DNA of 38,917 nt from Actinomycetota bacterium. Its GTDB lineage: Bacteria; Actinomycetota; Actinomycetes; Streptosporangiales; Streptosporangiaceae. How positions within the stretch are numbered: the stretch's first letter is position 1; each line of letters starts with the position of its first letter. The translations under genes and the position numbers were made by a program. The stretch lies in NCBI GenBank assembly GCA_003140115.1, contig PLIQ01000438.1, positions 48,275-87,191 of the forward strand, given 5' to 3'. The notes beneath the pieces are model-generated. The model was not told the origin of the DNA, did not search any database, and saw nothing but the letters and a program-made list of their open reading frames with translations. Positions 10,548 through 38,917 of the stretch are shown piece by piece.

Positions 10548-13500
10548 GTGCCTTTCCGGAAAAAAGCCCCGGCCCGCCCGCTATCTGAGCGGCTGAAGAG
10601 GGAGATCGACGAGGTTCGGGCTGGGCGCGCCTCCTCCATCACACTAAAGGGCCGTCTCACAAAAGTTCCGGACGAGATCCGCGAGCTGGAGGGCCTGCGG
10701 TCCTTGGTCGTCGACAGTGGAGAAATCGAAACGCTCCCGTCCTGGCTCGCCGATCTCCCGCATCTTGAGGTGATCGATATAAGCAGTCATCCGATGGCTG
10801 CACTTCCTGACCTGCCGAATGTTCAGTGGTCTGTCGATGCCGAGACGATAATTCGATGCGACGACACGCTTAACCCTGCTAAAATTTGTGCGATCTGTAT
10901 AACTCCTGATACATCATCGCAGGCTGCGCGAAGAACATTCGATCTTGCTCGAAGCTCAATGCTCAGCGTTTCCGGGCTATCGATAGGCAATTACGTCTGG
11001 AACAGCGAGAGCCGTCAGTCGATCGAAGCCAGGTGGCCTGCCCTTGACCGGATTAAATCGAATATCGAGAAATTTCTTGAGTCTCAGCGGGATCTATTCT
11101 TCCTTCACATCTGGGGATGCCCCCTCGGGCGGGTTCCGGAGGCTATACGCACGCTGCAACACCTTACCGACTTGGCCCTGGTGCATCTATGGCCCGAGAC
11201 CTACCCGGACTGGCTTTTCGAAGTTCCCGCATTGACCAAACTTAGTTTTCGCTACAGCGGCCTTACGGATCTGCCTGAGTCCATCGGCCGAGCACGCAAC
11301 CTAAAATTTCTCGACCTGTATGGTAATCCCCTCACTCAGATCCCGGCCAGTTTCTGGCGGCTGGAGTCACTTGAGGAACTCAATCTACGCAACTGTCCGA
11401 TCACCGAGATACCGGCAGATATTCTTAATCTCAGGCGGCTTGCCAGCCTGGAACTTGATGCTGGTCGGCTCATCACGCCCCCGCCCGAGATCGCCGCGAA
11501 TGGGATCGAGGCGATCAAGCGCTACTGGTCTCAGCAACGCGATGTCGGCCCCGATTACCTGGCCGAGGCGAAGCTGCTGATCGTAGGCGAATCGGGGGCA
11601 GGCAAGACGTCGCTGGCCAAGAAGATCCTCGACCCGGAGTACGTGCTGGACGCGGGGGAGGGTTCCACCGAGGGCATCAACGTGCTGGCGTGGCAGTTCC
11701 CGGCGGCCATCCGGGTGCGGGACGAGGGAGGCGAGCGGGTCATCCAGCGGAACTTCCGGGTGAACATCTGGGACTTCGGCGGGCAGGAGATCTATCACTC
11801 CACGCACCAGTTCTTCCTGACCAAGAGATCCGTCTACGTTCTGGTCACGGACGAGCGCAAGGAAGACACCGACTTCGAGTACTGGCTCGAGGTGGTGAAC
11901 CTACTCAGCGGAGGCAGCCCGCTGGTCATCGTCCAGAACCGCAAGCAGGGCCGTCAGCAAGGGATCGACCTCGGCGCGTTGCGGCAGCGTTATCCGAACC
12001 TGTGCGGCACGGTGACCCTGGACTTGGCCGACAACTCAGGCTTGGAGGCCGCCGTCGCCAAGGTCCGCCGGGAACTGGAGCAACTGCCGCATATCGGCAC
12101 CTCGCTGCCGAAGACCTGGCGGGACGTCCGGGTGGCCCTGGAAGCCGACCTCAGGAACTACATCCCGGCCGGGGAGTTCTTCGAGATATGCCGGTCGAAC
12201 GGCTTCACCGACCGGCTGGAGATGAGCCAACTCGGCGGCTACCTGCACGACCTGGGCATCTGCCTGTTCTTCCAGGATGATCCACTGCTGTCCAAGACGG
12301 TCATCCTCAAGCCCGAGTGGGGCACGGGTGCCGTCTACCGCGTGCTCGACGACCCCGGGACCGCCCGGTCCCTTGGCGTCTTCCGCCGGGCTGACCTGCA
12401 GCGGATCTGGTCCGATCCGGCCTACGAGTCGATGCAGAACGAACTGCTGCAGTTGATGGTCAGGTTCGGGCTGTGCTTCCAGGTTCCGGGCTCGGATACG
12501 TTCATCGCCCCGCAGCTGCTCACCCCGAGCCAGCCGACGTATCACTGGGATGAGACCGACAGCCTGGTGCTGACCTATGAGTACGAAGTGATGCCGAAGG
12601 GCATTGTCCGGCGGCTCATCGTAGCCTTGCACGATCTGATCGCCCCCGGCGACTTCCTCTGGCGGAACGGTGCCGTATTCGAATACGACGCCAGCCGGGC
12701 CGAGGTCATCGAGCAGTACCGCCGACGGCTGCTGAGCGTCCGGATCCGAGGCGGTGACCCGCGCGTCCTCCTCGGCATGATCGATCGCGAGCTGGCGCTC
12801 ATCCATCGTTCCTATCCGGGCGTCAAGGTCGAGCAATTCATGTCATGCGACTGCGCTAGGTGCTCCGCCTCAAGCGAGCCAAGCACGTTCAAGGTCAGCG
12901 ATCTGGAGGATTTCGCCCGCACTGGTGACATGATCCAGTGCCGGGCTAGCCGGAAGCTTCTTGACCCGCTCATGCTGCTAAGTGCGCTCGCGTCTGACCT
13001 CGCCACGGAGACGCAGGCGGCCACCGGGCGGGACGCACCGATCCAGCCGGAGGTGTTCATCTCCTACAAATGGGGAGGTGACAGCGAGGCCCTGGTCGAT
13101 GAAATCCAGAGCAGGCTGGAAGAACGAGGGATACTCGTCACTCGCGACAAGAGCGAGGTCAGGTACCGCGATTCCATTGAGCAGTTCATGCGGCGGATCG
13201 GCACTGGCAAATGCGTCATACTAATCCTGAGCAAGGAATACCTGCAGTCGAAGAACTGCATGTTCGAGCTGACCGAGATCGCCGGCCGCCCTGAATTCGC
13301 GTCCCGCGTCTATCCCATCGTCATGCCAGACGCCGCGGTCTTCGACCCGATCAGCAGGCTCGGGTACGTCAAATACTGGGAAGACCAGCGGACCGCGCTG
13401 GACCAGGCGATGAGGCAAGTCGGCCAGGAGTATCTGCAGGGCATCAGGGAGGAACTCGATCTCTACGAGAAGATCAGGAACACGATCGCGGGGATCATGG

Positions 13501-13595
13501 GCGTGCTGGCCGACATGAACACCCTGACCCCCGAGATCCACAAAGGCACGGATTTCGAGCAGCTCTACACCCAGGTGGCCACCGCCTTGTCCTAG
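10548..13595 (+). CDS. LRR-Roc-COR-TIR multidomain protein (bacterial Roco with TIR)
   Basis: This is a 1015-residue cytoplasmic protein. Residues about 35-90 and 195-320 hold leucine-rich repeats (LTDLPESIGRARNLKFLDLYGNPL, ITEIPADILNLRRLASLEL), separated by a non-repeat segment. A Roc GTPase domain follows, with P-loop GESGAGKTS (347-355), switch motif DFGGQE (409-414) and NRKQG (464-468) where a canonical NKxD is expected. The COR dimerisation domain comes next (about 500-760). It is followed by a Cys motif (CxCxxC at 767-772, Cys798) that recurs in this family. The C-terminal TIR domain (from about 833) has EVFISYK, and Glu907 in CMFELTEI aligns with the catalytic glutamate of NAD-cleaving TIRs. 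Such sensor-switch-effector architecture resembles immune receptors; NADase activity and an anti-phage role are inference. The GTG start is 15 bases after the response regulator gene. The LRR half is clearly AT-richer than the rest. Confidence 0.88.
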   Translation: MPFRKKAPARPLSERLKREIDEVRAGRASSITLKGRLTKVPDEIRELEGLRSLVVDSGEIETLPSWLADLPHLEVIDISSHPMAALPDLPNVQWSVDAETIIRCDDTLNPAKICAICITPDTSSQAARRTFDLARSSMLSVSGLSIGNYVWNSESRQSIEARWPALDRIKSNIEKFLESQRDLFFLHIWGCPLGRVPEAIRTLQHLTDLALVHLWPETYPDWLFEVPALTKLSFRYSGLTDLPESIGRARNLKFLDLYGNPLTQIPASFWRLESLEELNLRNCPITEIPADILNLRRLASLELDAGRLITPPPEIAANGIEAIKRYWSQQRDVGPDYLAEAKLLIVGESGAGKTSLAKKILDPEYVLDAGEGSTEGINVLAWQFPAAIRVRDEGGERVIQRNFRVNIWDFGGQEIYHSTHQFFLTKRSVYVLVTDERKEDTDFEYWLEVVNLLSGGSPLVIVQNRKQGRQQGIDLGALRQRYPNLCGTVTLDLADNSGLEAAVAKVRRELEQLPHIGTSLPKTWRDVRVALEADLRNYIPAGEFFEICRSNGFTDRLEMSQLGGYLHDLGICLFFQDDPLLSKTVILKPEWGTGAVYRVLDDPGTARSLGVFRRADLQRIWSDPAYESMQNELLQLMVRFGLCFQVPGSDTFIAPQLLTPSQPTYHWDETDSLVLTYEYEVMPKGIVRRLIVALHDLIAPGDFLWRNGAVFEYDASRAEVIEQYRRRLLSVRIRGGDPRVLLGMIDRELALIHRSYPGVKVEQFMSCDCARCSASSEPSTFKVSDLEDFARTGDMIQCRASRKLLDPLMLLSALASDLATETQAATGRDAPIQPEVFISYKWGGDSEALVDEIQSRLEERGILVTRDKSEVRYRDSIEQFMRRIGTGKCVILILSKEYLQSKNCMFELTEIAGRPEFASRVYPIVMPDAAVFDPISRLGYVKYWEDQRTALDQAMRQVGQEYLQGIREELDLYEKIRNTIAGIMGVLADMNTLTPEIHKGTDFEQLYTQVATALS

Positions 13596-38741: not shown

Positions 38742-38917
38742 TGTTGCGTCCTGAAAGCTGGTCCAGGCTTACAGGTGAAAGTCCTGTTCGGGTAGGTACC
38801 GGAGCGCCCGGTAGCAGGCCCCGGTTCGTCGTTGAGAGGCGGCGGGCTGAGCGGGGTGTCAAAAGCCTCTTCGGAGGGAGCAAGCACGCGGGCGGTAGCG
38901 TAAAGCGAACCTTGCAG
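38742..38917 (+). mobile_element. Probable 5' part of a group II intron (domain I), cut by window edge
   Basis: From about 38742 the sequence no longer codes and is rich in short hairpins. Features typical of bacterial group II intron RNA are ACAGG-TGAAAGT-CCTGT (about 38770-38786), matching the common GGTG(A/C)AAGTCC loop, several further GC-rich stems (for example CCGGAGCGCCCGG), and a segment GGAGGGAGCAAGC...GGGCGGTAGCGTAAAGCGAACCTTGCAG. The exact 5' splice site was not fixed. A reverse transcriptase/maturase gene should follow just beyond the window. Confidence 0.5.

Follow-up and report, generated by a model that had tools for sequence, protein, structure and literature searches.

A Roco protein with a C-terminal TIR domain

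The window analysed here, a stretch of 38,917 nucleotides from an Actinomycetota bacterium (contig PLIQ01000438.1), carries a gene whose product combines leucine-rich repeats (LRRs), a Roc-COR switch and a TIR domain in a single chain. The open reading frame (ORF) list and its translation give a GTG start and a protein of 1015 residues, with the domains running LRR, Roc, CORA, CORB, Cys4 and TIR from the N-terminus to the C-terminus (Table 1). The Pfam matches to these domains all lie over their curated cut-offs: LRR (LRR_4, 4.4e-14), Roc (residues 342-466, 1.1e-23), TIR_2 (residues 836-952, 5e-15) and the two COR matches listed in the table. The motifs GESGAGKT, DFGGQE, CDCARC and CMFELTEI begin at residues 347, 409, 767 and 904, respectively. 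A sequence-only reading had proposed this union of LRRs, Roc-COR, a CxCxxC...C motif and a C-terminal TIR domain in one gene; Pfam and the motifs confirm it and identify the fourth cysteine as C798. The top matches among solved proteins are "Rab family protein" chains (6hlu, 4.5e-57; presumably CtRoco), the LRR protein 4wnr, other LRR proteins and LRRK2.

Table 1. Features of the TIR-Roco gene in the window
Feature	Position	Strand	Basis
LRR-Roc-CORA-CORB-Cys4-TIR protein, 1015 aa	10548..13595 (stop included)	+	ORF, Pfam, motifs, homologue N-termini
Sensor half, residues 1-312, irregular and canonical leucine-rich repeats	10548..11483	+	Pfam, predicted secondary structure, variability, GC3
Roc nucleotide-switch domain, residues 338-515; GESGAGKT, DFGGQE, G4 = NRKQ	11559..12092	+	Pfam, motifs, alignment
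COR-A, residues 521-658	12108..12521	+	PF16095, 1.6e-41
COR-B core, residues 672-756 (Pfam match to 799)	12561..12815	+	PF25497, 2e-26
Cys4 module, residues 760-812: C767, C769, C772, C798	12825..12983	+	Motifs, alignment, module scan
TIR domain, residues 834-952	13047..13403	+	Pfam, profile, predicted fold
Glu907 codon, predicted catalytic glutamate	13266..13268	+	Motif, alignment
Conserved helical C-terminal extension of TIR, residues 953-1015, DMNTLTP motif	13404..13592	+	Alignment, predicted fold

The homologue search scored the 7994 candidates that shared the most words with the query; 4222 passed an E-value of 1e-3 and 120 were listed. A chance union of domains is excluded because many of these 120 proteins, one being the window's own, are colinear over the full length. 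The annotated start agrees with the N-termini of P0003-P0006 and P0009, which read [MV]P[FS]R[KR][KR]AP. Since the homologue N-termini match that start, P0002, an 878-residue version of the window protein beginning at Met138, is probably a short gene call. Of 121 sequences, the alignment keeps the 81 with at least 960 residues (P0001 plus 80 more); 38 shorter ones were left out, together with P0109 and P0115, which have other architectures. Residues K353, D409, G412, Q413, H417, H420, C767, C769, C772, C798 and E907 are identical in all 81.

Effector, switch and sensor

The TIR domain is nearest to those of plant nucleotide-binding leucine-rich repeat receptors (NLRs), both by profile and by predicted fold. 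Comparison with TIRs that cleave nicotinamide adenine dinucleotide (NAD) had been put forward as a check on the effector, and the predicted fold does match enzyme TIRs, NAD(P)-bound RUN1 among them, as well as SPARTA and Cat1. The earlier assignment of Glu907 within CMFELTEI proves correct: profile alignment sets it on the plant TIR glutamate, and a glutamate occupies the position in every aligned full-length sequence and in 24 of 24 in a second TIR comparison. Sequence and model together predict that Glu907 is the catalytic residue of an NAD-cleaving TIR. Two relatives, at loci L002 and L093, have a degenerate TIR start (SHER or SYER against SYKWGG) and retain this glutamate. No PADLOC component matches the protein as a whole; partial matches cover the TIR or Roc domain only, the best being bSEFIR (6.3e-10, residues 824-899).

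The switch is that of a Roco protein, with Roc followed directly by COR-A and COR-B. Its G1 (GxxGAGKT) and G3 (DFGGQ) motifs are intact, and their residues K353, D409, G412 and Q413 are among the invariant ones. The G4 motif NKxD, in contrast, has lost its aspartate. Position 467 holds no Asp in any aligned sequence (75 have Q, five H and one L), and N-x-K-Q stands in for G4 in most of them. Because this Asp confers guanine specificity, GTP specificity is not to be assumed and the designation "GTPase switch" becomes less certain. The nucleotide switch proposed by the sequence-only reading thus stands as Roc-COR with intact G1 and G3, and is weakened as a GTPase. No STAND, NACHT or NB-ARC match exceeds the Pfam cut-off in the window protein, the only P-loop matches being below it (nSTAND3, E 0.17).

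The altered G4 and the Cys4 module, a predicted metal (zinc) site, go together. Among the 98 Roc ORFs with Cys4 at the loci, none is classed as NKxD, 78 are NxKQ/H and 20 fall under "other", some of them NEKD-like and one unaligned. The 12 NKxD forms all lack Cys4, and a further 31 ORFs lack both, three of these having NxKQ/H. In this sample, Cys4 and the altered G4 co-occur whether or not a TIR is present; they may mark one clade.

The sensor half is the most variable part. Repeat-like strands and helices, read by eye from predicted secondary structure, span most of residues 28-306, beyond the canonical LRRs at 181-306. Over the 344 of 3240 sequence pairs with a Roc identity of 0.85-1.0, mean identity is 0.51 in the N-terminal part, 0.59 in the LRRs, 0.88 in Roc, 0.86 in COR-A and 0.77 in TIR. 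Variation concentrates on the concave face of the solenoid. Across six repeats of 23 residues, the entropy in 46 close sequences is 2.68 bits at the five positions of the concave face and 1.66 at the remaining non-consensus positions; for all 81 sequences the values are 2.98 and 2.13 bits. The permutation p of 5e-5 for this excess is the minimum possible with 20,000 shuffles, in a comparison that has no non-immune LRR control family. A ligand-binding LRR would be expected to show such a pattern. In four pairs of actinomycete genes, the nonsynonymous rate (dN) is about two to seven times as high in the sensor parts as in Roc, and its ratio to the synonymous rate (dN/dS) is 0.23-0.57 in the LRRs, 0.10-0.30 in Roc and 0.14-0.41 in TIR, below 1 throughout. 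Support for the sensor is confined to raised rates and to variation concentrated on the concave face.

Composition sets the same half apart. The GC content at third codon positions (GC3) of the window gene is 0.60 in the N-terminal part and 0.62 in the LRRs, against 0.89 in Roc, 0.91 in COR-A, 0.79 in COR-B/Cys4 and 0.84 in TIR. A milder contrast appears in two of six relatives (0.80/0.90 at L166, 0.75/0.90 at L147) and none in the other four. This mosaic fits a recombinational swap of the sensor half, or rapid divergence.

The Nostoc locus, distribution and neighbouring genes

The TIR-Roco adjoins nadE at four Nostoc loci (L009, L012, L013 and L080; the L009 gene is L009:14099-18958). Beyond nadE, the operon at L009 encodes an NrtR-type NUDIX regulator, a NadD-like nucleotidyltransferase and NAPRTase; at the other three loci, the position beside nadE is read from synteny. 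NAD destruction may be coupled to NAD synthesis here, or the operon may be merely a conserved flank or a coincidence. In a survey of the genus, NadE was present in 52 of 53 genomes, and 48 had the gene of the opposite flank; as read by eye from the two tables, both flanks lie at most 8 kb apart on one contig in 29, and four more genomes have them on one contig over 1 Mb apart. Of these 29 intervals, 23 were examined (20 retrieved, plus G005, G009 and G008), and the remaining six cannot hold an intact gene because they measure only 1.1-1.6 kb. Nine of the 23 contain a TIR-Roco whose Roc, COR and TIR share a reading frame (some of the LRR of the G915 copy falls in other frames), six contain only broken pieces or remnants, three being weak matches, and eight are empty of the gene, including G937, whose inverted segment makes it not strictly comparable. 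The alleles themselves are mosaic. G005 and G908, with NadE 98% identical, have Roc domains 43% and TIR domains 92% identical; for G005 and G009 (NadE 96%) the values are 95% and 63%. The switch and the effector have therefore been swapped independently at one locus. Among the evolutionary observations made here, this modular exchange points most strongly to conflict.

Searching genome contigs with the alignment, where a single-protein query had given no match, located the gene in scattered genomes. Of the 394 genomes sampled from the class of G001, one, G001 itself, has a match running from LRR or Roc through TIR. In its family (Paractinoplanes; presumably Micromonosporaceae) 7 of 300 genomes have one, and in the phylum of G005 (Cyanobacteria) 5 of 194 do, with eight places in all. 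Any match is found in 2 of 394 (at 1e-50), 30 of 300 and 25 of 194, respectively. These counts are lower bounds, with at most two or four candidates scored per genome. Matches through to the TIR are rare and their occurrence is patchy. A tblastn search of phages returned two records, covering the LRR part only, and one of plasmids returned 22, none reaching 80% query coverage at a single place, so that neither origin is supported. A scan of viral contigs gave five Roco loci, none with a TIR of the window type by profile, and likewise lends a phage-borne origin no support.

In the window, luciferase-like, SPFH, AIM24, ABC transporter, sensor-kinase and response-regulator genes lie upstream, and fructosamine kinase, major facilitator superfamily (MFS) transporter, hydrolase, regulator and other genes lie downstream; 20 of the 33 other ORFs were scanned with Pfam, four of them without a match. 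A Group II intron element (D1-D4-4, Rfam, 85.3 bits) lies at 38769-38903 on the forward strand. The TIR-Roco starts 16 bases past the stop of the response regulator. Genes like this regulator form one BLAST cluster present at 7 of 37 compared loci, the window counted, and a sensor-kinase gene read by eye stands directly upstream at L147 and L166. Used as a flank for an empty-site test in the Paractinoplanes family, the neighbouring sensor kinase reached only 46-57% identity outside the query genome among the matches listed. An operon with the upstream two-component system may exist but is not taken as the main context: some homologue loci likewise have two-component genes nearby, others have none, and the sensor half differs strongly in composition.

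These two-component genes would fit a role in developmental or stress-induced programmed cell death: the protein would sense internal signals (wall, redox or metabolite) and cleave NAD for differentiation or stress arrest. The named holders identified here are Paractinoplanes, cyanobacteria, Planctomycetota and Myxococcales, all groups of complex lifestyle, and the accessible text of an eLife 2020 paper (PMC7159879) places such conflict systems chiefly in multicellular prokaryotes. Such a role is nonetheless unlikely. The gene is patchy even within one class or family, it comes and goes and exchanges modules at a single locus, its concave LRR face varies, two-component genes are widespread, and the neighbours differ at the FxSxx and Nostoc loci.

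An FxSxx system adjoins the TIR-Roco in three of the seven copies in the family of G001 (L148, L149 and L150, in three genomes). Family search identifies FxsT at all three (NF040586, 1.5e-209 to 2.3e-260; at L150 the scanned copy is on the 3' side), and the HExxH hydroxylase and FxsB at L148; a BLAST cluster adds the hydroxylase at L149 and L150, and a genome search gives FxsB at all three. FxsB exceeds its cut-off in 15 copies in seven genomes, and the sole such copy in G657 is the adjacent one. Short peptides near the three TIR-Rocos match FxSxx weakly, at 18-28 bits against a cut-off of 28, one of them barely above it. FxSxx systems have also been predicted to be tied to TIR-AP-ATPases (PMC7159879, accessible text). 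The protein could accordingly be imagined as an arm of a ribosomally synthesised and post-translationally modified peptide (RiPP) system, its LRRs reading the FxSxx cyclophane peptide or its failure in inter-bacterial conflict or alarm amplification. This is very unlikely, given that four of the seven family copies have no such genes in their retrieved flanks as read by eye, and that the three loci may represent one inherited association. Pfam recognises no radical-SAM match in the 20 scanned ORFs of the window, where no FxSxx-model search was made.

Overall, a conflict-type neighbour occurs at no fewer than 8 of 27 unevenly inspected loci. Besides the three FxSxx loci, two TIR proteins lie near the gene at L003, two that match the ThsB model over its TIR part lie at each of L013 and L014, a caspase-like protein about 3 kb away at L006, and a candidate PDC-M21A protein at L153; a second caspase-like protein lies about 9 kb away at the edge of L009. 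The survey comprised 224 ORFs of at least 90 residues within 5 kb, 78 of them scanned. PADLOC tallies also include PDC-M52B, M21B, M28B, M51A, PglX and DEDDh, as single matches not traced to members. No conflict-type neighbour was recognised at the remaining loci, which were inspected less closely. Enrichment in defence islands is not claimed because the neighbours have no background rate.

A probable one-chain immune receptor and its relation to known systems

The favoured reading, held with moderate confidence, is that the gene product is a one-chain intracellular conflict (immune) receptor acting by NAD cleavage through its TIR domain. The LRR solenoid, with a concave face that differs from copy to copy, would bind a ligand derived from an invader or from damage. 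Binding would change Roc-COR both in its nucleotide state and in its dimerisation through COR, as CtRoco and LRRK2 suggest. The TIR domains, freed from autoinhibition, would associate and cleave NAD+ via Glu907, as the fold and the invariant residue imply, and loss of NAD+ would lead to growth arrest or abortive infection.

Several observations weigh against this reading. Positive selection averaged over the LRRs is rejected, dN/dS being below 1 in all four pairs. The switch is only partly backed as a GTPase, its NKxD Asp being lost. No defence gene was recognised by Pfam beside the window gene among the scanned ORFs, and its recognised neighbours are ordinary; the neighbour survey once suggested as a check yielded conflict genes beside some relatives and an allelic hotspot in Nostoc, and no support from the window itself. 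Finally, scaffold TIRs fit the predicted fold as well as SARM1 does. The TIR could be a scaffold recruiting other TIR proteins as the true effectors, or a generator of a cyclic ADP-ribose isomer signal. Either is improbable, as the scanned ORFs include no recognised ThsA-like effector, the single-chain layout is enough for depletion and the glutamate is invariant. The NLR-type immune receptor of the sequence-only reading thus gains support from the fold, the invariant glutamate, the variable concave face, the conflict neighbours and the hotspot, and loses ground through the window context and the altered G4; its architecture had been predicted before.

That prediction was made in 2021, reportedly by Kaur et al. 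Proteins with LRR, AP-GTPase and COR domains and at least 24 kinds of C-terminal domain, TIR included, were predicted to be counter-invader systems (eLife 2021;10:e70394, PMC8195603; consulted in part), so the architecture is not unreported. The LRRs of AP-GTPase proteins are described there as rapidly evolving. The window protein has the same N-terminal LRRs, Roc (AP-GTPase), COR and C-terminal effector position, the effector varying in relatives, and its LRR dN/dS is above that of Roc yet below 1. The covered part of that paper gives no experiment on such proteins and no mention of Cys4, the altered G4, allele exchange at one locus or a link of this GTPase type to FxSxx. The window protein is a conserved member of this class. 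The earlier remark that no defence system of this architecture had been characterised holds for the literature searched, which yielded no such system and no experimental Roco-TIR test; it covered few subscription papers and is no proof of absence.

Prokaryotic Rocos are described as LRR-Roc-COR only in the accessible text of PMC6337361 and PMC11052575. The LRR-Roc-COR core is common to the window protein, CtRoco and the model bacterial Rocos, and is alignable across all three domains; the window protein departs from the others in having Cys4 and TIR as well and in its loss of NKxD. Its TIR is closest to those of the plant TIR-NLRs RPP1, Roq1, RPS4, RUN1 and L6. These join a TIR effector, a nucleotide switch and an LRR sensor in one chain, the switch being of the NB-ARC/STAND type, whereas here it is Roc-COR and the order is reversed, with LRRs N-terminal and TIR C-terminal. 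Bacterial STAND/NLR-like defences such as Avs and bNACHT follow the same sensor-switch-effector logic, which the window protein shares although it has no match to their switch. With Thoeris, SPARTA, Cat1, bSEFIR and other TIR/SEFIR defences it shares a TIR-fold effector, but LRR-Roc-COR replaces the Argonaute or CRISPR front end. Among eukaryotes, a role as immune receptors that diversify their LRRs has been proposed for brown-algal ROCOs (PMC11378527, in the part available).

A broader proposal is tentative and rather doubtful: a receptor class that diversifies by exchanging sensor, switch and effector independently at dedicated loci, with a Roc domain no longer specific for guanine (NxKQ in place of NKxD) that may be activated via another nucleotide state, with the FxSxx cyclophane peptide as ligand or alarm in some actinomycetes, and with bacterial Rocos as ancestral immune switches that LRRK2 and DAPK later re-used. 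Exchange was seen for switch and effector, at the one Nostoc locus beside the nadE/NrtR/NAPRT operon. Bacterial Rocos, little understood in themselves, are used to model the structure of the Parkinson's kinase LRRK2; the sources available describe them without an output domain. A Roco fused to a TIR with an intact glutamate would give a measurable output, NAD+ loss and toxicity, and so makes two questions testable: the role of bacterial Rocos, and how LRR binding is transmitted via Roc-COR to an effector. The defence reading, if true, would add a non-STAND switch to the bacterial NLR-like receptors.

Related Rocos bear other effectors: of 106 Roco ORF tails without a TIR-profile match, 87 were scanned, and 15 match TIR_2 and 8 CHAT. 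Four Roc proteins of 1228-1761 residues (L159-L162) end in the same TIR subtype and have no COR-A profile match. In P0115 (1107 residues), the Pfam list places PF13271 (presumably DUF4062) and PF00931 (NB-ARC) where the LRRs would stand, joined to Roc-COR-TIR; this chain possibly combines two candidate NADase domains with two switches.

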